64,000 bases of DNA, taken from Pseudobdellovibrionaceae bacterium. Its GTDB lineage: Bacteria > Bdellovibrionota > Bdellovibrionia > Bdellovibrionales > Bdellovibrionaceae. How positions within the stretch are numbered: position 1 is the stretch's first letter; each line of letters starts with the position of its first letter. Shown here in pieces: positions 36,828 to 48,653 of this stretch. Position numbers and translations under genes: made by a program. The notes under the pieces are model-generated. The model searched no databases and was not told the origin of the DNA. It worked only from the letters and a program-made list of their open reading frames with translations. The DNA lies in contig JAKFYD010000006.1 of assembly GCA_021731025.1 (NCBI GenBank), positions 1-64,000 on the forward strand, read 5' to 3'.

Positions 36828-37364
36828 TTAAAACTGATTCTTCCACATCATGGATTCAACAGGTCGAGGAGTGACCTCGTTGTATTTTGCTGAAGATTTT
36901 CCGTTGTAGGGAGTGATGATGTCTCCTTTAACTTCGAAATAGATCAGCTGACCGATGGGCATGCCGGCGTAAACTCGCACGGGTTTTTTTACAGAAATTT
37001 CTAGGGTCCAGTAGTTACAAAATCCCACGTCGCCTTTTCCCGCAGTCGCGTGAATATCAATTCCTAAACGGCCAACGCTGGATTTTCCTTCCAGGAAAGG
37101 AACGTGTTTTAAAGTTTCGGTGTACTCTTCGGTAACTCCTAAATAGAAATTATCAGGAGTGAGGAGAAAACCTTCCTCGGGAATTTCAAAAGTATCTATA
37201 CGGTTGTGCTTTTTTGCATCGAGAACGCTATCAAGATAAACACCCAAGGTTTTTCCCAAATGAACATCGTAGGAATTTGAACCTAAACATTCACGTGAAA
37301 AAGGATCAACGCGGATTGAGCCTGCTTTGATACACTCGAGAATTTCTTGATCGGTTAAGATCAT
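36828..37364 (-). CDS. dcd: dCTP deaminase
   Basis: Deaminates dCTP to dUTP for dTMP synthesis, in the cytoplasm. Start MILTDQEI is typical of Dcd. The catalytic region GKSSVGRLGIDIHATAG and the glutamate block WTLEISVKKPVRVYAGMPIGQ are present in parts (GKSSVGR, TLEIS). Length 178 is normal. Its ATG shares one base with the stop of rpmG upstream (TAATG), so translation is coupled. Confidence 0.93.
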   Translation of the reverse strand: MILTDQEILECIKAGSIRVDPFSRECLGSNSYDVHLGKTLGVYLDSVLDAKKHNRIDTFEIPEEGFLLTPDNFYLGVTEEYTETLKHVPFLEGKSSVGRLGIDIHATAGKGDVGFCNYWTLEISVKKPVRVYAGMPIGQLIYFEVKGDIITPYNGKSSAKYNEVTPRPVESMMWKNQF

Positions 37365-37543
37365 TACTTGGTCTCGCGATGCACAGTGTGTTTTTTCAAA
37401 TTAGGATTGTACTTTTTCTTCTCTAAACGACTTGGTGTTTTAGTTTTATTTTTCGTCGTTGTGTAACGAGACACGGGTTTCCCTAAAGCACGAGCTTCAG
37501 TGCATTCCAAAGTAACGATAATTCGTCCTGATTTTTTTGCCAT
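37364..37543 (-). CDS. rpmG: 50S ribosomal protein L33, Cys-free form
   Basis: 59-residue basic protein: [18 protein letters not shown] ... [29 protein letters not shown] in parts. The L33 hallmarks TxNKxxxPxRLExKKYxPxLKKH are clear. Only one Cys remains (TLECTEA) and both CxxC zinc pairs are lost, so this is the zinc-independent C-minus type. AAAGGA lies eight bases before the ATG. It heads an operon with dcd. A GCCATGC/GCGTGGC hairpin lies 34 bases upstream in its leader. Confidence 0.95.
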
Positions 37544-37748: not shown

Positions 37749-38153
37749 ATGTTTCCAAAAGAGACTCGAATTTTAGTGGTTGATGATATGTCGTCCATAC
37801 GCGATTTAGTGCGCTCTCAGCTGAGGGGCATGGGATATAACGATGTCGTCGAGTGCTCCAATGGTGCAGATGCCTTGAGTTCTTTAGTCAGTGGGACTCA
37901 GAGCGGGCGCCCCATCGGCCTGGTCATTTCCGACTGGAATATGCCCATCATGACCGGCCTGGAATTTTTAAGAAATGTTCGCTCGAAGCCCGAGTTTGCG
38001 GCTTTACCCGTGGTGCTCTTGACCTCAGAAGCTGAACGGGAACAGGTCACCGAGGCTGTTTTGAGCGGGGTCTCCCAATATGTCGTGAAACCTTTTTCGG
38101 CTAAGGTTTTCGAGGATAAACTCAAGGGCGCTTGGCAAAAACACAATAAATAA
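37749..38153 (+). CDS. Single-domain response regulator (CheY-like)
   Basis: 134-residue receiver domain without output domain. Acidic pair in VVDDMSS, phospho-acceptor Asp in ISDWNMP, Thr in LLTSEAE and Lys in VVKPFSA are all present, the CheY pattern. AAAGGAG precedes the ATG. It converges with a 9-bp gap on a CheA-like kinase, a likely phosphodonor partner. Target unknown: motor or another protein. Confidence 0.93.
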   Translation: MFPKETRILVVDDMSSIRDLVRSQLRGMGYNDVVECSNGADALSSLVSGTQSGRPIGLVISDWNMPIMTGLEFLRNVRSKPEFAALPVVLLTSEAEREQVTEAVLSGVSQYVVKPFSAKVFEDKLKGAWQKHNK

Positions 38154-38162
38154 AGTTCGAGG

Positions 38163-40106
38163 TCATGCAACTTTTGTTGAGGGAAGTTCGGCAGGGGCAA
38201 CTGTTGAGGGCAGTAATGGAATGTAAAACTCAAAGCAAGTTCCTTGGCCCATCACCGACTTAACATGTATTTCGCCTTGAAGATCGTGGACGGCGGCTTT
38301 AACGGCATCAAGACCAACTCCGCGACCCGAGATTTCGGTGATTTCGGTTTTTGTTGAAAACGAAGGGTCGAAGATATGCTGAATGACCGCTTCATCGCTT
38401 TCATTGTCCGTTGAAATTCCACGGGACGCTAACTTTTCGCGAATTTTTTGGGGATTAATCCCAGCGCCATCGTCCTGAATACTAAAAAATAAATAATCTT
38501 TATTTTCTTTCAACAGGGTTCCCGTGGTGATTTGAATGCGGCCCTCGGGAAGTTTGCCCAAGTTCTGGCGAACTTCGGGAGTCTCTAGCCCATGATCAAT
38601 GCTGTTGCGAAAGCAGTGAATCAGAGCGGAAAACAAGGGCGAAAGGTCTAAGTTTCCTAAAGCAATATCAGGGCCCCAAATTTTTAATGGCTGAACCTGT
38701 TTACCCAATTGGACGGCTGTTTGTTGTGCGACTTGGTTGAAAGGCTCGAACAAATTATGCAAATGCTGTTGGAGATACTTTTCAGAAAGTTTTTGGGAAA
38801 GGTGACGGCCTTTGCTCCAGAATGAAAGAACATCGCAAAGATTTTTCAGATCTTGTTCAGAGACTTCAATTTTATTTTCGCGTTGTTCACTTTGTGGACC
38901 TAAAATTTCGTGAGCCTGATTCAGAAAGGATTGAAAGTGTTGACGCATTTTTGGAAGTGCGGCAGTTAGAAATGGCTTCCAAATCTCTAGGCTATGATCG
39001 GAAACCTTTTCTTCGCAAGCATGGGTGACTTCCACAAGATCTTTCATCGAATAAAGTCCTGCATTTCCTTTAATTGTATGAAGGGCTCGTTTAATTTCTT
39101 CAAGATTGATGGACTCTGCAGAAAGAACTAACTGTTCCCCAAGAAGGGTGAACCAAGATTCGATCTCTTTGACGAAAGTTCGCAGATGTTTTTTATTCTG
39201 AACAATTTGCAGAATCAAACGCACGCGGGCCTTTTCATTCTCGGCTTCGTGCTGAGCTTGGATTAAATCCGAAATATCGGAAGCCATCACCACAATGCCC
39301 TTAATTTTATTGTGCTCATCATGCAGTGGAAAGTATTCAATACTGATACTTTTTTCCAAGGAGTGGGGATAGGTCGCGGGACCTAAAGGAGCCAAGTCTT
39401 CGAAAGGAAGCATTTCGCCAAATACAGTCAGAATCCATCGTTGCAGCCCTGCAATTTTTTCGGCGGGCAGTTTAAGCACGTCCCATATTTTTTTTCCAGC
39501 CGGTTTGGTTTCTAAAATGCTTTCGCAAGCTTTTGAAAATACGGGAAGACAATCGCCACTTTCATCGAAAATAAAAAAGCCCTGTTTCAAGCTGTTAAGA
39601 AGAGCCATCATGGTGCGATTCAATTCCGTGATTTCGAGAGTGCGTTGGGACACAAGCTCTTCCAAATTCTTAGAATAATTTTCTAGCTCGTTTTGGGCTT
39701 TTTTGAGTTCTAAGATGACGCCCTCTTTTTGTTCCAGCTGAGCCCGGTATTTATTTTGGAGCTGCTCTTCGAGGGTGACATCGCGAAAATAAACCAGCCA
39801 CTGGTCTTCGCTGTCCGTACCTTCTAGTTTTTGCAATGTGACTTGTACGATGCCGTTTTGACCAGCTTGATTCTTAAAACGAAGCTCCCGATAAGGAGTT
39901 GATTCGGTAATTTCATCCAACTTAAAAAAATCTTCTTTGGTTTCGAAGGTAAAAATACCATCAATTTGATTTTTTGCGCGAACAATCTTTCGGGGAGTCG
40001 ATCCCGCTAAAGTGGCGGCGACTTCATTGCAATAGAGGATCTCTTTGTTTTTATTCAAAACAAAAACGGCTTCAAGAAGTGTGTCAAATAATTGAAAGTT
40101 CATCAT
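38163..40106 (-). CDS. CheA-like histidine kinase with PAS and Hpt domains
   Basis: 647 residues, no membrane segment. Order: PAS (about 5-110), coiled coil (115-165), second PAS-like region (165-280), Hpt domain with phospho-His in RALHTIKGNAGLYSM (about 342), linker, then HATPase_c with N-box HCFRNSIDHGLE, DDGAGI and GRGVGLDAV. The phospho-His in an Hpt domain and the CheA-type N-box mark a CheA-like kinase, but the CheW-like P5 domain is missing. Its ATG overlaps the FecR-gene stop (ATGA). It probably phosphorylates the receiver at 37749 and perhaps the one at 44799. Confidence 0.9.
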   Translation of the reverse strand: MMNFQLFDTLLEAVFVLNKNKEILYCNEVAATLAGSTPRKIVRAKNQIDGIFTFETKEDFFKLDEITESTPYRELRFKNQAGQNGIVQVTLQKLEGTDSEDQWLVYFRDVTLEEQLQNKYRAQLEQKEGVILELKKAQNELENYSKNLEELVSQRTLEITELNRTMMALLNSLKQGFFIFDESGDCLPVFSKACESILETKPAGKKIWDVLKLPAEKIAGLQRWILTVFGEMLPFEDLAPLGPATYPHSLEKSISIEYFPLHDEHNKIKGIVVMASDISDLIQAQHEAENEKARVRLILQIVQNKKHLRTFVKEIESWFTLLGEQLVLSAESINLEEIKRALHTIKGNAGLYSMKDLVEVTHACEEKVSDHSLEIWKPFLTAALPKMRQHFQSFLNQAHEILGPQSEQRENKIEVSEQDLKNLCDVLSFWSKGRHLSQKLSEKYLQQHLHNLFEPFNQVAQQTAVQLGKQVQPLKIWGPDIALGNLDLSPLFSALIHCFRNSIDHGLETPEVRQNLGKLPEGRIQITTGTLLKENKDYLFFSIQDDGAGINPQKIREKLASRGISTDNESDEAVIQHIFDPSFSTKTEITEISGRGVGLDAVKAAVHDLQGEIHVKSVMGQGTCFEFYIPLLPSTVAPAELPSTKVA

Positions 40107-42295
40107 TCGAAAGAGTTCTCATTAATTTTAAAGAGCAGGTTAAAGAGCCAAGGTCGGGACCAGTCTGAAGAGTCCTCTCGCACAGGAGCAATGGCTTTAA
40201 CTCGCCAGTAGATGGGCCCGAGTGGAATTTTTCTGCGGATCAGGTAGCGCGCGACATTGTTATCTTTGTCTGTAATGACCTTGTCTTTAATAATGATTCT
40301 TTTAAAGTCTTTATCCGAAGCGACTTCGATTTCATAGGAAACCGCACTTGGATCTTTGGACCAAACTAACCAAAGAAAGGGCTCGATGTCTTTTTGCAAG
40401 AAGACGTTCACTTCGTGGCGAGGTTCTTCCAAAGTTGGTGCTGCTAATTGAGTGCGGTACTCATAAACAATAGTTTGTGGAGGCGAGTAGTCAGTCAAGG
40501 CCTGTTGATTTTCATCATAAGCGCGAACACGGGCATGATACTGGCCTGGCTTCGGCAGTTCGAATTGTTCTGTATTTGAACTGATTTCACGCTTAATAGG
40601 AGCTTTGAATGCAGGATCTTTATCGACTTCGAGAAGATATGTTTTAGCAAAGGGAATTTGTGTCCAAGTTAAATTAACATTTTTTGGTGGTGCAGGCATG
40701 CCGATCTTTTCGGACTTTTCAAAAATCTTCGTCAAGGGAGATATTTCTGGAACCGACAAGATCACTTTAATTGATCCAATTTCACTGGGGAGACTTGTCC
40801 GACCCTGAGTGCGTTTTGCCCAGACTCGAAAATAATGGTTACCAACTTTGTACTGAGTCCAGTTCCATTGCAGGGATTCGGTTTCAAAAGTTTCTTTTAC
40901 TTTGAAGTCCTTTGTTTTCGAAAGCTCAATCAGGTACGTTTTTGCATCCGCTAAGCCCTTCCAATTGACGGATGGGGCTTGCACGGCCGCAGGATTTCTT
41001 TGTGCCTGTACAGGATTAAAAATAATGTTCTTGGTGATGAGCTCTAAAGGTGCGGCTCGCTTTTCGGTGACTGAAACTTTCCAGTTACGAGCTTCTGACC
41101 AAGGACCCCTTTTTTCATTGGGCAGCAGGCCGCGGACACGAGCATAATAGATTCCAGCTTTTAATTTTTCGAGCTTAACCGAGGTCTGTTTTGTTTTTTG
41201 GCTCGCAGCAACTGCGGTGAACACGGGTGTATCGGAAAGTTGCCATTCATATTCGCCATACGTAGCAACTGAAGACCAGCTTAAAGTTGTTGCCGTAGCA
41301 AAATCTTTTCCTGCGGGAGCTTCGACTTCAAACGAAAGATCTTGGTTCACATCGGGAGATGTGATTCGTGGTGCTTCAAAGTAGCTCACAAAGAGACGAC
41401 GCACTTCTGATTTGGTTACTTCCTGCTGACTGTCGTTGATTCCCACCACGCGCCAAAAATACCAGCCGCGTTCTAAGGAAGCGGTTACAGAGTGAGGGCT
41501 AACGGACGTTAAGGAAGTGTAAATCGTTTTTGAAAAATCCAGTGCTGGAGATATCTCAACACGAAATTGATTTAATTCTGTTGCGGTCCACTCGACGGGA
41601 AAAGCTTCGCCTTTGTTGAACAAGGTGATCGGAGTTTTATCAAGAGTCACAAGACTGATCGAGGATTTAAGTTTGATCACCTCGTCTTTTTTCGCTAGGG
41701 AATTAGCGGGCGCAATTAACAAAGGTTTTTCTTTAAGCAAGGTCAAGCGTTCGTTGCTTTTTTTATCGGTGAACTGAGCTTTGCCTTCTAGAAGTTTAAT
41801 TTTAACTTTTTTCGTGCGTGATTTCTGAATTTGAACTTTGGAAGTGTCGCCGCTTTGTGGCGTTAAGTCGAATTTCTGAGTGCCGGCAGTAACTTCAAGC
41901 TGAGATTTTTCATTCAGCGCAGTCACTAAATCCCCGTAGCGAAGATCAAGTTGAATCTGACCTTGATTCATGTTCAGAGTGATCATCGAGTTTTCTTTTA
42001 CTTCGATGACGGAACCATCGTCGAATGTCAAGACCGCTCGTGAATTGCTTCCCGTGAAGATACTGTCACGAAGATATATTTTTTCGGTGTTGCTGACAGG
42101 ACGCCACAGGAAACTTTCTTCGGTTTTCCGTCTGACGTCGTTCAATGAAAGATTGAAACTGCCAATATTTTTATTCTTAGTTTCAAGCTCTTGATTGAAT
42201 AAAAGTGTATCGTCGTACAAAAAATACGAAAAGGCGCAGAAGATGGTTGCGCAGGTCCAAAAGATAAAGCGTTCAGTCCGACTAAAATTTGACAT
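40103..42295 (-). CDS. FecR-domain envelope protein with Fn3-like repeats
   Basis: N-terminal membrane helix (FIFWTCATIFCAFSYFL), then a FecR domain at about 60-130 (VYLRDSIFTG-like: IYLRDSIFTGSNSRAVLTFDDGS, DLRYGDLVT). After that come about five repeated Fn3-like units of 90-100 residues. Each ends with a WYFWRV-, YYARVRG- or YHARVRA-type strand followed by a Pro-rich turn. It should be anchored in the inner membrane with the repeats in the periplasm. FecR domains usually sense or pass signals. It is coupled to the CheA-like kinase by a 4-bp overlap and is divergent from the PP2C gene. Confidence 0.82.
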   Translation of the reverse strand: MSNFSRTERFIFWTCATIFCAFSYFLYDDTLLFNQELETKNKNIGSFNLSLNDVRRKTEESFLWRPVSNTEKIYLRDSIFTGSNSRAVLTFDDGSVIEVKENSMITLNMNQGQIQLDLRYGDLVTALNEKSQLEVTAGTQKFDLTPQSGDTSKVQIQKSRTKKVKIKLLEGKAQFTDKKSNERLTLLKEKPLLIAPANSLAKKDEVIKLKSSISLVTLDKTPITLFNKGEAFPVEWTATELNQFRVEISPALDFSKTIYTSLTSVSPHSVTASLERGWYFWRVVGINDSQQEVTKSEVRRLFVSYFEAPRITSPDVNQDLSFEVEAPAGKDFATATTLSWSSVATYGEYEWQLSDTPVFTAVAASQKTKQTSVKLEKLKAGIYYARVRGLLPNEKRGPWSEARNWKVSVTEKRAAPLELITKNIIFNPVQAQRNPAAVQAPSVNWKGLADAKTYLIELSKTKDFKVKETFETESLQWNWTQYKVGNHYFRVWAKRTQGRTSLPSEIGSIKVILSVPEISPLTKIFEKSEKIGMPAPPKNVNLTWTQIPFAKTYLLEVDKDPAFKAPIKREISSNTEQFELPKPGQYHARVRAYDENQQALTDYSPPQTIVYEYRTQLAAPTLEEPRHEVNVFLQKDIEPFLWLVWSKDPSAVSYEIEVASDKDFKRIIIKDKVITDKDNNVARYLIRRKIPLGPIYWRVKAIAPVREDSSDWSRPWLFNLLFKINENSFE

Positions 42296-42403
42296 AAGTT
42301 CTTAAAGTTACTTCGGAAAATAATAATGTATTAATGACAGACGAAGGTCTAAAGTATGTGACTTTTTGTTCAACTTGAGGCCGTCCTGTCTCAAACTAAG
42401 ATA

Positions 42404-44230
42404 GTGCAAAAACGTCGCTTCTCTATTCGCTATAAAATTCTGGCTTTATTGACTCTCATTCCCGTATTAACACTTGGTATTTTCTTGTTTATGGCTCTCA
42501 AGATTTTTCGAGAGGACAAGATGGCTTACGTCTTTGATTCGACGAGCAATCTTTCTGGCACCATGGCCAGTCAAATCAAGAATCAGCTCAATACAGTTAT
42601 GATTGGCGCTAAGCCAATATTTCAGGACTACCTATCCCAGGGAAAATTTACGAATGTTTCCCAGGCCTTATTGATTAACGACTATTACCTAGACCTTATT
42701 GCTGTCTACGAAATGGACGAAACCGGTAAGACATTAAAAATTAAGGATCATATCGAGCGTGCCCCCGAGATGTTCGAGGAGCTTTCAGTGAAAGCCGAAC
42801 AGCTTACGGCTCTGACCACGTCTCAGAATAAACCGCGTTTCGTTTATTCTTTGGATAAAGATGATCGGTTGTTTGTCGTCGAACGTGTTGTTACCGAAGA
42901 TAAACAGAAATCAATTTATTTTGGCTTTGTTGTGCGCTTTTCTGAGCTTGAACAGATGTTTTCAACTTCGGTGGCACAAAAGATTTTTTTGATTGATGGC
43001 ACGGGTAAAGTTCTTTTCGGCCCTCAAGGTACGATAGGCGAGGGCTTAACTCAAAAAATGAATCTCAATTTTTTGCGACAGGCCGAGACGATTTCCCAGG
43101 GGGTCGAGGTCTCGCGAGATCAAACCAATACAGAACATCTTGTCTCTTACGCCAAGGTTGGATTTGCGGATTTGTACATCATGACCTCAGTCATGAAGGA
43201 AAAAGCCCTCGGAGCTTTAGGTATTCTTTTAAGAAAATCAGTTATATTTTTTATCTTGTTGATCAGTTTGACGGCGATGGTCAGTTTGCTGGCCTCGAAT
43301 TCATTAACCCGGGCTTTGACTTCGCTCTTTGACGCTACAAAAAAGGTTTCCGAGGGAAAATTTAACTTTCAGGTCAATGTCACTTCGAATGACGAAGTGG
43401 GAAGCTTGGCTAAAAATTTTAATTTGATGGCCGCAGAAGTCTCACGTCTGCTGGATCAAACGGCAGAAAAAGCGCGGATGGAAAATGAATTGCGTACCGC
43501 AAAGACGGTTCAGGAAACTCTTTTTCCAGAGACGACGGCGAATCTGGGGCCACTGCAAATTTCTGGATTTTACGAACCCGCTAGTGAATGTGGGGGCGAC
43601 TGGTGGCACTACAGTAAGGTCGGAAATAAAATCTTACTTTGGATCGGCGATGCTACCGGGCATGGAGCTCCTTCGGCCCTAATTACCGCTGCCGCAAAGT
43701 CTGCTGCGACCATTATCGAAAGATTGAACGTAGGGCCAGCAAAAGCTTTAGAGCTTTTGAATCGCTGCATTTACGAATGCTCGAAAGGGCAATTGATGAT
43801 GACTTTTTTCTTGGCTTACTACGACACCACAACCGGGGTTGTGACTTATGCAAATGCTTCTCATGAAGCTCCCTTTCTAATTCGTAAATCTGGTGAAGCT
43901 TTAAAGAAGAAGCATCTTATTCCGATGAATGCGGTGAATAACCCAAGACTTGGCCAGAACCAGACGACAACCTACACCGAAGCTACCGAAAAGTTAGAGC
44001 CGGGTGATCTCATGCTTTTTTACACGGATGGAATTTCTGATATTAAGAATCCTGCAGGGGAGTCCTGGGGAGAAAGAGAATTTATCAAAGCGATCGTGAA
44101 GTCCAGTCAGGACTTTCCTACGGCCACCGATGCGGTCTCTCGCATTTCAAAAGTTTTTCAGGAGTTTCGCCAAGGTTCTTCATTAATTGATGACGTAACA
44201 TTCTTTATAGTTAAAAATAAAGAACATTGA
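42404..44230 (+). CDS. Membrane sensor PP2C/SpoIIE serine phosphatase
   Basis: 608 residues: first helix (YKILALLTLIPVLTLGIFLFMAL), a periplasmic sensor of about 250 residues (dCache-like), second helix near 280, HAMP (SLTRALTSLFDATKKVSEG ... NDEVGSLAKNFN in parts), coiled coil, then a SpoIIE/PP2C phosphatase with CGGDWWHY, WIGDATGHGAPSALI and FYTDGISDIKNP. It dephosphorylates Ser/Thr-phosphoproteins, classically STAS anti-anti-sigma factors. The start is GTG 42404 with weak ribosome binding. The STAS gene follows after 10 bp, making a partner-switching pair. Confidence 0.9.
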   Translation: MQKRRFSIRYKILALLTLIPVLTLGIFLFMALKIFREDKMAYVFDSTSNLSGTMASQIKNQLNTVMIGAKPIFQDYLSQGKFTNVSQALLINDYYLDLIAVYEMDETGKTLKIKDHIERAPEMFEELSVKAEQLTALTTSQNKPRFVYSLDKDDRLFVVERVVTEDKQKSIYFGFVVRFSELEQMFSTSVAQKIFLIDGTGKVLFGPQGTIGEGLTQKMNLNFLRQAETISQGVEVSRDQTNTEHLVSYAKVGFADLYIMTSVMKEKALGALGILLRKSVIFFILLISLTAMVSLLASNSLTRALTSLFDATKKVSEGKFNFQVNVTSNDEVGSLAKNFNLMAAEVSRLLDQTAEKARMENELRTAKTVQETLFPETTANLGPLQISGFYEPASECGGDWWHYSKVGNKILLWIGDATGHGAPSALITAAAKSAATIIERLNVGPAKALELLNRCIYECSKGQLMMTFFLAYYDTTTGVVTYANASHEAPFLIRKSGEALKKKHLIPMNAVNNPRLGQNQTTTYTEATEKLEPGDLMLFYTDGISDIKNPAGESWGEREFIKAIVKSSQDFPTATDAVSRISKVFQEFRQGSSLIDDVTFFIVKNKEH

Positions 44231-44240
44231 TGGAGTGTGA

Positions 44241-44711
44241 ATGGGTAAGCTCGACGTAAAAATGGTTAAAAATAGCGACAAATTAAACTTGGAAATGTCG
44301 GGTTCGGTTGATGAGGATGTGGACTTTCAACAGTATTCCCTAGCAGGATCAGCTCAAATTGATATCGATCTCAAGGGCATTCAAAGCATTAATTCGTGCG
44401 GAATCCGTGAATGGATCAAGTGGATTAGCACGGGCTCAAGTTCAAAAATCACTTTCAGTAATTGTCCTAAAGTTATTGTTGATCAAATTAATATGGTTGA
44501 TGGTTTTTTGCCGACGAATGCGACTGTGCACTCGTTTTTTGTTCCCTATTACAATGAAGAATCAGGTTCGGAAAAAAATATTTTATATCGACTGGGTCAT
44601 GAATACAAAGATGGATCTTTAAATCCACCGGCTGACGTGAAAGACGATGCTGGCGCGGTGATGGAGATGGACGTTATAGAATCTAAATACTTTAAATTCA
44701 TAAAAAAATGA
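44241..44711 (+). CDS. STAS-domain protein, anti-anti-sigma-like
   Basis: 156 residues. Residues 1-100 fit a STAS domain: IDIDLKGIQSINSCGIREWIKWI is the core strand-turn-helix, in which NSCG replaces the usual DSxG phosphorylation loop. The Ser is kept, Asp becomes Asn, and the next residue is Cys. Residues 100-156 are an extra acidic tail with a Tyr/Phe-rich start. It is next to the PP2C gene, which would dephosphorylate it. The matching kinase (RsbW-like) is not seen nearby. Family call is moderate because of the divergent loop. Confidence 0.7.
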   Translation: MGKLDVKMVKNSDKLNLEMSGSVDEDVDFQQYSLAGSAQIDIDLKGIQSINSCGIREWIKWISTGSSSKITFSNCPKVIVDQINMVDGFLPTNATVHSFFVPYYNEESGSEKNILYRLGHEYKDGSLNPPADVKDDAGAVMEMDVIESKYFKFIKK

Positions 44712-44798
44712 TTTTGGCCTAGGTCTAGATTTGCTTAAAGCTTTATAGAGCCGCCATAAAACTCAAAGAATCTTGAACTTCTACCGAAGAGAACGTTT

Positions 44799-46727
44799 GT
44801 GAGTACGGAAAATGTAAGAGCTTTAATTATTGAAGATGATTCCTCGCTGGGCGAAGCTATTCAAGAGGCTTTAAAGCGAGAAGGAATTAATGCTTACTGG
44901 ACCTCTCGTCCCGAAGAAGGGATTTCTTTATTTTCTTCCAATAAAGTTGAATTTGTCATCGTCGATTGTTTACTACCCCAAATGACGGGAGTCGACTTCG
45001 TCATGAAGTTGCGCCAAATGAACCCAGAGTCAAAATTTAAAATTATTTTGATGAGCGGAATTTACACGGATAAAACCTTTATCCAAGAATCTGTGAAGAA
45101 AACTCAAGCCTTATCTTTTTTGAAAAAGCCCTTCGAGCTTGAGCAAATTCTGTCTCTTGTTAAGACCGACGAGAAAAAAGAAGAGCTTCCCGCGAGAAAA
45201 ATTTTGTATCAGATCTTTTCGAAAGAAAAAGTCACTAATCGCGAAAAGAAAAAGATGCTTGAAAGCATTGACGAAGTCAGTGGATTTGATTTGCCCTTTA
45301 TTTATAGTTTATTAGCGGAAACGAAAAGCTCTGGTTACCTCAATATCTACAGTCACGATGGATCGGTTTCAGGATTGGCATTTGCCAATGGCTCTATCGT
45401 TGGTGTCGATGTCGAGGATCGGCAAACCTACCTGGGAGAATTGCTTATCCAGAGTGGATATGTGACACCTGAAGATATACAAAAGGCTCTTAAGAATAAA
45501 ACCAATAAGCGTTTAGGCCAGGCTCTTATTCAATCGAATTTAATGAGTCCCCACGCTTTGGATTTGATGATGACAGAGCAGATGAACATTCGTCTTTCAA
45601 AAACGATTGTGGATCGCCAAGTAAAATTAAATTTTGCCACATCTGATGTTGAACTGATCTCGCCAAGTATTGATTCCGATTTGCTTTTAAATTATCTGCA
45701 CGATTGGATCGCTTCAAAAATTTCTGTCTCTTGGCTAAAATCACTGTACATGATGTGGGCCGGTCATGTGATTATTCCAACAGTTTCTTTTCGCTATGAT
45801 CATCCCGCTTTAAGGATGTCCCTCGTTGAAAGTTTGGACGGGCTTGCTGGAAAAATTAAAGATTCGACTACTCTCAGTCAGCTTCTTGAAATTAAAGATT
45901 ACAATCAGGCCGCCCTTTATAAAGCTCTGCACTTTTTGCTGACTAAGGGATTGATCGTATTTTCGACTAAGGCCGGGTTCAGCAATGAAGTTGAACAGCT
46001 TAATTATTTGCAAAAAATCAGTGCCGAAATTCAGGGAAAAAATGCCTTCGAGATTTTGGAGTATGTCGGAATTGGTTCGCTAGGAGCTGGCAATGCCGAA
46101 CAGTTGCTTGTCGACTTTTTGCCAAATTTAGGAACAGAGCCAACCAATAAGGAAAGTGAACTCTATAAGTTATGGACTGGTCTTCATGCTCAATTTCGCC
46201 AAGCTGCGGTCAGCAGTCGGGATGGAACCAGTCGCAATAAATTTAAAAAAGAGACCGAAAAAAATGATGCTGAAGCAAAAATTCGGGCGACGAAATTGGT
46301 CGAAGAAGCTCGACATGAGTTGCAGCTCAATCAATACCAAAAAGCGATGGATAAAATTACGATCGCGCAAAAGCTCAGTCCACAATTTTTCCAATCCAAT
46401 ATTTATATGGCCTGGGCAAAGCTTGGACAGATGGAAACAAGGAAAAATTTTAATCGATTAAAAGATATCGAAATTGATCTTATGCAGGTTCCTCCTGACG
46501 AAAGATACGATGCTTTATATCCTTTCGTTATGGGACTTTACTACCGAGCTAAAGGCGATATCATCAACGCCAAAAAATCTTTTGATAAAGCTTTGGCATT
46601 AGATTCCAGCTTTATCGTTGCACGCCGAGAGCTAGGCAAATTGGAAGCTCAACTGAAGGCGAAGAAACAAGATATATTCAATATGGATTTAGGCCAAGTA
46701 GTCGCAGGGTTTTTTAAGAAACGTTAG
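44799..46727 (+). CDS. Receiver-domain protein with PATAN-like and TPR domains
   Basis: 642 residues starting with GTG. Receiver at 1-120: IIEDDSS, Asp in VIVDCLLP, Ser in ILMSGIY, Lys in LKKPFEL. The middle has a DUF4388/PATAN-like segment (YLNIYSHDGSVSGLAFANGSIVGVD) and LGELLIQSGYVTPEDIQKAL plus LGQALIQSNLMSP, resembling type-II-secretion GspE N-terminal repeats. The C-terminus is TPR-like (NQYQKAMDKITIAQKLSPQF). Such proteins link signalling to motility or gene control in deltaproteobacteria. It follows the STAS gene by 87 bp, with a palindromic element after its stop. Confidence 0.82.
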   Translation: MSTENVRALIIEDDSSLGEAIQEALKREGINAYWTSRPEEGISLFSSNKVEFVIVDCLLPQMTGVDFVMKLRQMNPESKFKIILMSGIYTDKTFIQESVKKTQALSFLKKPFELEQILSLVKTDEKKEELPARKILYQIFSKEKVTNREKKKMLESIDEVSGFDLPFIYSLLAETKSSGYLNIYSHDGSVSGLAFANGSIVGVDVEDRQTYLGELLIQSGYVTPEDIQKALKNKTNKRLGQALIQSNLMSPHALDLMMTEQMNIRLSKTIVDRQVKLNFATSDVELISPSIDSDLLLNYLHDWIASKISVSWLKSLYMMWAGHVIIPTVSFRYDHPALRMSLVESLDGLAGKIKDSTTLSQLLEIKDYNQAALYKALHFLLTKGLIVFSTKAGFSNEVEQLNYLQKISAEIQGKNAFEILEYVGIGSLGAGNAEQLLVDFLPNLGTEPTNKESELYKLWTGLHAQFRQAAVSSRDGTSRNKFKKETEKNDAEAKIRATKLVEEARHELQLNQYQKAMDKITIAQKLSPQFFQSNIYMAWAKLGQMETRKNFNRLKDIEIDLMQVPPDERYDALYPFVMGLYYRAKGDIINAKKSFDKALALDSSFIVARRELGKLEAQLKAKKQDIFNMDLGQVVAGFFKKR

Positions 46728-46734
46728 AAGCACT

Positions 46735-46838
46735 CTAATAAGCCTGGGCCCTTCGTTGCTTAGTCGGTCGGCTTGTGCGGCGTACTGACGTACGCCTCCG
46801 CGCCTCTCTCCTGCGCGCCTCGGTCGCAGGCTTATTAG
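46735..46838. repeat. 104-nt nested palindromic element between convergent genes
   Basis: Perfect 12-bp outer inverted repeat CTAATAAGCCTG (46735-46746) and CAGGCTTATTAG (46827-46838). Inside is a perfect 7-bp hairpin GGCGTAC-TGAC-GTACGCC (46779-46796) and a GC-rich stretch with GCGC/GCGC arms. The element is far more GC-rich than the surrounding genes. Its outline (outer 11-12-bp stem, inner hairpins) matches the 85-nt element at 16759, although the sequence differs. It sits between two convergent stops, so it may be a dispersed repeat and also a bidirectional terminator. Confidence 0.65.
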
Positions 46839-46874
46839 CGCACTTCTGATTTGGCGAACTGGTGCTGGGAATTT

Positions 46875-48653
46875 TTAGAACAGCAATGAGAGGCCTAGCT
46901 TGCCTTGCATCTGAATTTTTGAGGACGTGGTGTTGTTTTCGAAATCGCCTTGAATGAGTGAGGCTCCGTAGCTCCAGGACCATGAATTGTTGAGTTTTAG
47001 GAAGAACAGTGTGTTCAACTCGAGGAAGTATCGCAGGTCGCCGGCGCTGTTACTTGCGCCACTGTAGTAGGTCAGATCGAAGTTAAACCAATCGATGCTG
47101 GAGCCACCGAAGCTTGGATTTTCTCCTTGGTAGAACACTCCCAGTCCAAAGGAATTGTAGGTTGCAAGAGATGTTTTTAGACTTTGGAAAGGAATTTTTA
47201 TTCCCCAGGTTGGATCTACAAAATTAAATCCTGGTTTAAATCGATACATCAGCGCGGTCCGGGCTAACGAGTAATCCATAAAATCATCTTTACGGCTGAG
47301 CGCTAGGATTTGCTCGATTTGCAATCCCCAACGAAGAAAATGGGAATCCCCACGAGCTCCTAGAAAACTTTCCGACCACCAATCAAGAACAAAATTTCCG
47401 AGGAGAAGGGAAGACGATGGTTCGTAGACACCGTAGACTTTAGCATGAAATAGTGTGCCTTTTTGGACTTTGTGTGAAACAGAAAATTCACTGTTCGCCG
47501 TTTTGAAGGACATAAATCTTTTATTGTCGCTTTCGACGTCCAAGTTTTTTAAAAGCCATAAAAAATGTCCATCGGGAAAAGATTTAAGGCCCGAGTTTTT
47601 ATCTTTGATGATCACCTTAGCGTTTTCCGGAGCCCTAACATCAATGATAATTTGGTCGGAATAGGTTTTGGTCTGTAATGGAGCTAATGCATACGGACGC
47701 ATGGCTTCAGCGGGAACTGGGCCACGCAGATAGAATTCTTGTCGCATGGGTAGGCCGCCAGCGCCACGCAAGTAGAGTACAGGATCCGTAACAGGTATTT
47801 GTGCCTTCCATGATTTTCCTTCGAGGAGCTCAACTTTATCTTGTTTAGCTGGTAGGGCGCCTTCGGCACGAAGATTTAAAGTTGCACCATTTTCGCTGAC
47901 AAAGACATCTTGGAAGTCAACGGGGCTCATGCGTGTTTCAAACTCTAATAAAGCGCCGTTTTCAGAAAGCGCTTTCAAATTCAAATTCTGTTTTGGATCA
48001 TTCAGAAGAATAATCGCTTGGCCGCCATTGACGACCTGATCATTGATGATCAAGCGACTTTGTTTTTGCGAAGGCGAACGTGATTTAATTTGCATATCAT
48101 CTTTTGTGCCTGAAAAATAAAATTCCCGAGAACACAGTTGCAATCGAGAATTGTCTTCCAATTTGTGAATGCAAAACTTAATGAAAGGGAGATACTTCAT
48201 CTCATTCAAAACTTTGATGTCAATGGGGGCGCTGGTCATTCGTGCTACATCGGACCGCAAGGACAAATTTGTTGATTTTTTATTGGGAACGATACTCAAA
48301 AATTGAGGTTCAACTTTAGTGCTCCATAGAGCTTTCCCGTAGTTGTTAAATAAAATGATCTGGCCTTCGGGAACAAGAGCATAAGGCCAAGCAAAAATAA
48401 GATTAAATTTTTTATCGCCTTTATTCGGCAGAATTAATTCGAACTGAGTTTGGTCGGTATCAATCAAGATATCGCCCAATTTCATTTGTTCCGCATTCAA
48501 CAGAGTGAATTCGAATTTTTGGGGAAGGATCTGGACGTTACTTTTCTCGGGCAGAAAATTCAATGGCTCGGTGTATTTGCTCGGGACTGCCGTGTTTTCG
48601 GCTTGAGCTTGCTGTCCGCAAAAAAATAAAAGAAAGAACGCAAAGATCTTAAT
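46875..48653 (-). CDS. Secreted beta-barrel protein with apparent ATT start
   Basis: From ATT at 48653 the frame reads IKIFAFFLLFFCGQQAQA|E, an ideal signal peptide, followed by about 570 residues. AGGAG lies five bases before the ATT. No ATG, GTG or TTG fits between the upstream stop and the signal; the first ATG (48563) would skip the signal entirely. The N-terminal two thirds hold several Ig-like units (IIIDVRAPENAKVIIKDKNS and others); the last 220 residues are barrel strands ending GKLGLSLLF. Likely an outer-membrane protein. It is 8 bp downstream of the AAA-type NTPase gene, so they are cotranscribed. Confidence 0.75.
   Translation of the reverse strand: MKIFAFFLLFFCGQQAQAENTAVPSKYTEPLNFLPEKSNVQILPQKFEFTLLNAEQMKLGDILIDTDQTQFELILPNKGDKKFNLIFAWPYALVPEGQIILFNNYGKALWSTKVEPQFLSIVPNKKSTNLSLRSDVARMTSAPIDIKVLNEMKYLPFIKFCIHKLEDNSRLQLCSREFYFSGTKDDMQIKSRSPSQKQSRLIINDQVVNGGQAIILLNDPKQNLNLKALSENGALLEFETRMSPVDFQDVFVSENGATLNLRAEGALPAKQDKVELLEGKSWKAQIPVTDPVLYLRGAGGLPMRQEFYLRGPVPAEAMRPYALAPLQTKTYSDQIIIDVRAPENAKVIIKDKNSGLKSFPDGHFLWLLKNLDVESDNKRFMSFKTANSEFSVSHKVQKGTLFHAKVYGVYEPSSSLLLGNFVLDWWSESFLGARGDSHFLRWGLQIEQILALSRKDDFMDYSLARTALMYRFKPGFNFVDPTWGIKIPFQSLKTSLATYNSFGLGVFYQGENPSFGGSSIDWFNFDLTYYSGASNSAGDLRYFLELNTLFFLKLNNSWSWSYGASLIQGDFENNTTSSKIQMQGKLGLSLLF

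Follow-up and report, generated by a model that had tools for sequence, protein, structure and literature searches.

A seven-gene FecR, SpoIIE and STAS locus in Bdellovibrionota, predicted to wire partner switching to a CheA-like phosphorelay

Seven genes at positions 37749 to 48653 of the window, the whole 64,000-nucleotide stretch of Pseudobdellovibrionaceae DNA analyzed here, group together far beyond chance and form one locus. Within it, the FecR protein pairs with a SpoIIE-type phosphatase and not with the CheA-like kinase whose gene it overlaps. Based on gene order, gene fusions, intact active residues, paired losses and the co-location of a PAS family with STAS genes, we lean toward the view that the locus encodes a partner-switching pathway connected to a phosphorelay. 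The FecR protein and the dCache-bearing SpoIIE phosphatase would act through a STAS protein on a PAS kinase, and from there on CheY and a REC-PATAN-TPR protein, with no sigma factor involved. The individual parts are already known; the proposed wiring is a new variation on them.

Gene content and synteny of the locus

The source genome (G000; 3.49 Mb in 81 contigs) belongs to the Bdellovibrionaceae. All seven genes named in an earlier sequence-only reading were confirmed at their coordinates:

37749..38153, + strand: CheY-like stand-alone receiver (PF00072, 2.4e-22)
38163..40106, - strand: soluble CheA-like kinase, PAS-PAS-Hpt-HATPase (Pfam/NCBIfam, conserved residues, PAS profile)
40103..42295, - strand: FecR and Fn3-like periplasmic protein (PF04773, 34.7 bits against a cut-off of 24)
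42404..44230, + strand: dCache-HAMP-SpoIIE (PP2C) sensor phosphatase (PF07228, 117.1 bits; HAMP)
44241..44711, + strand: STAS protein, predicted phospho-switch, with Ser52 in INSCGIREW (AlphaFold/Foldseek fold)
44799..46727, + strand: REC-PATAN(DUF4388)-TPR effector (profile matches; REC Asp and Lys conserved)
46875..48653, - strand: exported, putatively barrel-type protein (signal peptide; no family match)

The CheY-like receiver has the D-D, D, T/S and K residues, and its nearest NCBIfam model is CheY, with a score under the model's cut-off. In the kinase, an N-terminal PAS domain (residues 1-150) of the family found at STAS loci is followed by a second PAS domain, an Hpt domain (PF01627) and a CheA-type ATPase (PF02518; CheA models over residues 450-631), with the Hpt His and the N and G boxes conserved. 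We found no match to the CheW-like regulatory domain (P5) in this protein, which stops soon after the ATPase domain; the sequence-only reading was thus right about the missing CheW domain as well as about the grouping of the seven genes. The phosphatase has membrane helices at residues 12-30 and 279-297, on either side of a dCache match (E 8.6e-6) that lies under its cut-off, and its catalytic Asp motifs (GGDWW, GDATGHG, YTDG, DDVT) are intact. The probable start of the barrel gene is an ATT at 48653, preceded by AGGAG and followed by the signal peptide. A bL33-like small gene (37364-37543, - strand), absent from the earlier gene list, lies between dCTP deaminase and CheY, and a GC-rich, repeat-like segment (46740-46840) separates the convergent REC-PATAN-TPR and barrel genes.

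We looked for every one of these genes in one set of 129 genomes from the class. Most genomes of f1, the family that the window itself comes from, keep them in synteny, and they recur in rearranged form across the class and the phylum. The order in f1 (for example G026, B. bacteriovorus kdesi) is CheY, then kinase and FecR, divergent from SpoIIE, STAS and REC-PATAN-TPR, then the barrel gene. In f2 (for example G039:C6), FecR is divergent from a single-strand series of SpoIIE, GHKL, STAS, kinase, CheY and REC-PATAN-TPR. Two other families of the phylum, f18 and f21, have FecR divergent from SpoIIE-(GHKL)-STAS. A PAS enzyme adjoins this series or lies close to it, with a receiver next in f18; f13 shows this arrangement too, except that FecR is not next to SpoIIE. 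The CheY orthologue lies beside the kinase in f1, f2, f9 and f18. Some genomes (G226, G247) carry a second cassette, and in one g2 genome on a single contig of 2,657,893 bases (G001), the whole locus is absent. Synteny across Bdellovibrionota, which had been proposed as a check, was strongly positive and bears out the earlier idea of a single pathway that combines CheA-like with partner-switching components.

The STAS protein, its kinase and its predicted target

No Pfam or NCBIfam STAS model matched the STAS protein. Its AlphaFold model (pLDDT 92.9) found RsbV/SpoIIAA homologues as best Foldseek matches, with E values of 3e-4 to 1e-3 against TM1442 and SpoIIAA. Ser52 lines up with the DSAG Ser of TM1442, and the Ser of the INSxGIREW motif is invariant in all of the approximately 70 relatives aligned. 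The fold and the aligned Ser52 together suggest a STAS protein with a phosphorylatable Ser. We had expected this residue to decay after the loss of SpoIIE and the GHKL kinase; it is kept in genomes without the GHKL gene and in those without SpoIIE too, a finding that makes a simple phospho-switch less convincing for those lineages, in which Ser52 may serve a different function or answer to a different regulator. Residues 94-156 of the protein form a conserved C-terminal extension. Divergent STAS proteins (the C termini at L119 and L120; L173:2991-4376) have CxxC pairs in this extension, which suggests an ancestral zinc ribbon lost in the window's lineage.

The sequence-only reading had noted that the kinase for the STAS protein is missing locally. 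This holds: the window locus has no GHKL Ser kinase gene, and just 10 nt separate SpoIIE from STAS. Most relatives carry a gene of 245-300 aa at this position. Its family (alignment A1) has the invariant GHKL residues (N-box E..N, DxxG.L, GxGxG), and its Pfam matches are below threshold only. The AlphaFold model (pLDDT 84.8) matched SiaB best (6kko, E 7.9e-5), followed by SpoIIAB (1til, 1.2e-4); structure comparison thus succeeded where the alignment profile found nothing significant among PDB sequences. In f18, five proteins carry this same GHKL domain fused to the SpoIIE C terminus (E 1e-17 to 1e-47); in G205, it is fused to STAS. Because of the fold match and these fusions, the divergent RsbW/SiaB-like GHKL gene is very probably the cognate STAS kinase. 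The local gene is absent from the window, from Bdellovibrio and from several other genera, and the kinase tree implies at least four losses of it within f1.

The sole RsbW-like match elsewhere in the source genome is a 476-aa protein on contig C35 (L121:1892-3319), in which a cNMP-binding domain and a degenerate receiver precede an RsbW-like GHKL domain. Matches to the RsbW and STAS families occur together in 89 genomes, neither occurs in 35 and one only in 5, counts whose significance is inflated by shared ancestry. From this co-occurrence, the C35 protein is the best candidate for a trans kinase of the STAS protein. Proteins of this type, possibly cyclic-nucleotide-gated Ser kinases, occur in most STAS-bearing Bdellovibrionia.

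The gene neighbors of STAS point to its target. Outside f1, the STAS gene adjoins the PAS-kinase gene, and in f2 the two touch or overlap (STAS ends where the kinase starts in L062); in f1, the kinase follows FecR and not STAS. We ran a profile built on residues 1-150 of the kinase (A6) against 28 genomes, most of them picked for having a STAS gene. It gave 26 matches at E <= 1e-8; 23 of these share a locus with a STAS-family gene, and approximately 15 are within 100 bp of one. The matches away from STAS are G247:C52, G221:C12 and G000:C9, the last being a PAS-GGDEF protein 12 kb from that genome's second STAS gene. Three kinds of enzyme follow this PAS: Hpt-HATPase, HisKA-HATPase (G135) and GGDEF (G130, G183, G196, G226). 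A constant PAS with interchangeable outputs beside STAS is what would be expected if STAS docks on the PAS. Because STAS adjoins the kinase gene outside f1 and the PAS is rarely seen away from STAS loci, action of STAS on the kinase in series is more likely than action via a separate arm; these neighborhoods do not support the earlier proposal that the output splits into phosphorelay and Ser-phosphate arms. Control of diguanylate cyclases by STAS proteins is known (SiaC-SiaD, BgrV-BgrR, HsbA-HsbD; PMC8457831), while control of a CheA-like kinase by a STAS protein was not found in the literature searched.

These observations also bear on classical anti-sigma switching, in which a local or trans GHKL protein would hold a sigma factor, STAS would free it, and the kinase and CheY would be co-regulated neighbors. 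SpoIIE, an RsbW-like protein and STAS do make up the classical triad, and the structures matched by the GHKL models include SpoIIAB in complex with a sigma factor (1l0o). However, no sigma-factor gene was recognized among the ORFs scanned at the approximately 58 loci, and STAS adjoins PAS enzymes instead, as in 23 of the 26 PAS matches; the cyclase systems named above are precedents for STAS proteins working free of sigma factors. We consider this explanation unlikely, although the GHKL protein may bind a sigma factor encoded elsewhere in the genome.

At the effector end, the REC-PATAN-TPR protein contains an MshE/PilF-like c-di-GMP motif at residues 212-261 (NF053729, 42.7 bits against 38), which the sequence-only reading did not mention; residues 208-262 match PilF (6f8l). 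In g2, the kinase, CheY and the receiver domain of the PATAN protein were lost together. The loss of REC alongside the kinase fits the kinase as its phosphodonor, although it represents one clade, and copies outside the locus make REC-PATAN-TPR orthology between families uncertain. Two spurious ORFs (G025_locusX, G049_locusX) in the REC-PATAN-TPR tree were ignored. In G021, G126 and G059, a single reading frame joins the PATAN-TPR protein to an exported protein of barrel type (985, 1000 and 848 aa). In these three g2 genomes (L128:6445-9402, L129:1899-4901, L130:645-3191), a cytosolic PATAN-TPR is fused via a signal or anchor segment to a barrel, a topologically odd arrangement. The window barrel is homologous to the fused g2 barrel (hhalign 97.6%, E 2.7e-12) and thus probably belongs to the pathway.

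The same proteins could instead form a hub with parallel inputs, in which the kinase would sense by its own PAS, and REC phosphorylation, c-di-GMP and STAS would converge on the PATAN-TPR protein. The STAS and PATAN-TPR genes are neighbors in f1 and g2, also where the kinase has been lost; g2 retains STAS, PATAN-TPR and the barrel without the kinase, and the c-di-GMP motif would supply one of the inputs. In f2, f13 and f18, however, STAS adjoins the PAS enzyme and not PATAN-TPR, and many STAS loci are without a PATAN protein. This arrangement therefore appears rather improbable.

The partner of the FecR protein

In 47 of the 57 loci that could be scored (58 in total, one cut by a contig edge; the count includes the source genome's second SpoIIE gene, on C8), the FecR gene is the divergent neighbor of SpoIIE. 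It remains so with the kinase elsewhere in f2, f5, f6, f8, f18 and f21, and the kinase adjoins FecR in f1 only. Losses follow the same pattern. Three genomes, G060 (g10), G066 (g11) and G098 (g16), are without FecR, SpoIIE and the local GHKL gene and have kept STAS, the kinase, CheY and REC-PATAN-TPR; G098 retains a small Fn3-like fragment. On the kinase tree, these losses are two independent events, and each joint FecR-SpoIIE loss could be a single contiguous deletion. Conversely, the g2 members with the locus kept FecR, SpoIIE and STAS without the kinase and CheY.

In most orthologues, the FecR protein has approximately 9-12 cytosolic residues before a single N-terminal membrane helix; this topology is taken from the orthologues, the window protein's own helix lying under the hydropathy threshold used, and its predicted cytosolic stub has approximately 9 residues. 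The FecR domain is present, with no cytosolic anti-sigma part in these few residues and no sigma-factor gene recognized next to FecR at the locus. The kinase has no membrane helix. Because the FecR protein has only this stub in the cytosol and the kinase is soluble, a periplasmic contact between FecR and dCache would be the only direct route for FecR.

The sequence-only reading had instead coupled FecR to the CheA-like kinase through their cytosolic parts, with a phosphorelay arm and a Ser-phosphate arm downstream, and had regarded a FecR protein with a histidine kinase as unusual. The 4-nt overlap of the two genes, in the window and in most f1 loci, is in keeping with such a coupling, and so is the Burkholderia 'BiofilmReg' operon, in which a FecR/LysM protein accompanies a CHASE2 histidine kinase (PMC5192318). 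This operon also shows that the combination is not unprecedented. The topology of the two proteins speaks against a cytosolic contact, and FecR stays with SpoIIE in six families, is lost with it in g10, g11 and g16, where the kinase persists, and outlasts the kinase in g2. FecR pairs with the phosphatase, and a coupling to the kinase now seems highly doubtful. A phage or defense role was rejected, as PHROGs gave no match and PADLOC two weak receiver matches only.

The source genome has a second, divergent pair of FecR-like and dCache-SpoIIE genes (L123:2151-4776, on C8), with a TPR lipoprotein and then a small exported protein downstream and no STAS gene adjoining. In two g2 genomes without the kinase (L080:5076-6455, L127:8811-10184), a PAS-GGDEF gene with a related PAS lies between FecR and SpoIIE.

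Proposed pathway and its meaning

In the partner-switching pathway that we favor, the periplasmic FecR/Fn3 protein and the dCache-HAMP part of SpoIIE would form an envelope sensor pair as the input. The phosphatase would dephosphorylate Ser52 of STAS, opposed by the RsbW/SiaB-like GHKL kinase, for which the C35 cNMP-GHKL protein would be the likeliest stand-in in the window's lineage. Depending on its phosphorylation state, STAS would bind directly to the dedicated PAS of the kinase instead of freeing a sigma factor. This docking would control whether the Hpt domain is phosphorylated and passes its phosphoryl group on to CheY, and probably also to the receiver of the PATAN-TPR protein, which may also read c-di-GMP and act toward the barrel protein. 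We see an even chance that this represents a phylum-wide module, in which FecR activates SpoIIE and STAS docks on one PAS joined to a CheA-like or HisKA kinase or a diguanylate cyclase, driving a phosphorelay or c-di-GMP and not a sigma factor.

Several known systems resemble parts of this scheme. In SiaABCD of Pseudomonas aeruginosa, which acts on the diguanylate cyclase SiaD, a membrane SpoIIE phosphatase and a GHKL kinase likewise set a SpoIIAA-like protein that gates an enzyme and not a sigma factor, and no structure matched the GHKL protein of the relatives better than SiaB. In contrast to that system, the STAS protein here has no match to SiaC/DUF1987 models, the SiaA equivalog model reaches 68.6 bits against a cut-off of 700, and the locus has a FecR partner and a PAS-kinase output. 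The RsbU/RsbW/RsbV and SpoIIE/SpoIIAB/SpoIIAA systems share the three activities, the folds and the conserved switch Ser; they differ in that no sigma factor was found at the loci studied here, the local GHKL gene is absent in this lineage, and STAS has the extension 94-156. HptB-HsbR-HsbA and SypE-SypA also join a phosphorelay to Ser partner switching; however, there the phosphorelay feeds the switch, while here gene order suggests that the switch feeds the kinase. As in Burkholderia BiofilmReg (PMC5192318), a periplasmic FecR protein lies beside a kinase, but the kinase there is a membrane CHASE2-HisKA protein, whereas FecR here goes with a dCache SpoIIE. Like the chemotaxis kinase CheA, the kinase combines an Hpt His and a CheA-type ATPase with a CheY gene; unlike CheA, it has N-terminal PAS domains, no CheW-like domain and no receptor genes at its locus. 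The open-licence full texts searched for Bdellovibrio with SpoIIE/STAS, FecR or partner switching held no study of the locus, and the FecR-SpoIIE/STAS pairing is named in no title or abstract of the open-licence literature searched.

Orphan proteins of two kinds are common: FecR proteins that have no sigma partner and CheA-like kinases that have no CheW. The present reading places both, putting the former with a PP2C phosphatase and the latter under a STAS switch that acts via a particular PAS family. A PAS of this type is predicted to bind a protein switch and not a small ligand, and a protein with a cyclic-nucleotide domain becomes the candidate trans kinase. The reading thereby offers a possible envelope-signaling pathway for predatory bacteria, including Bdellovibrio bacteriovorus.
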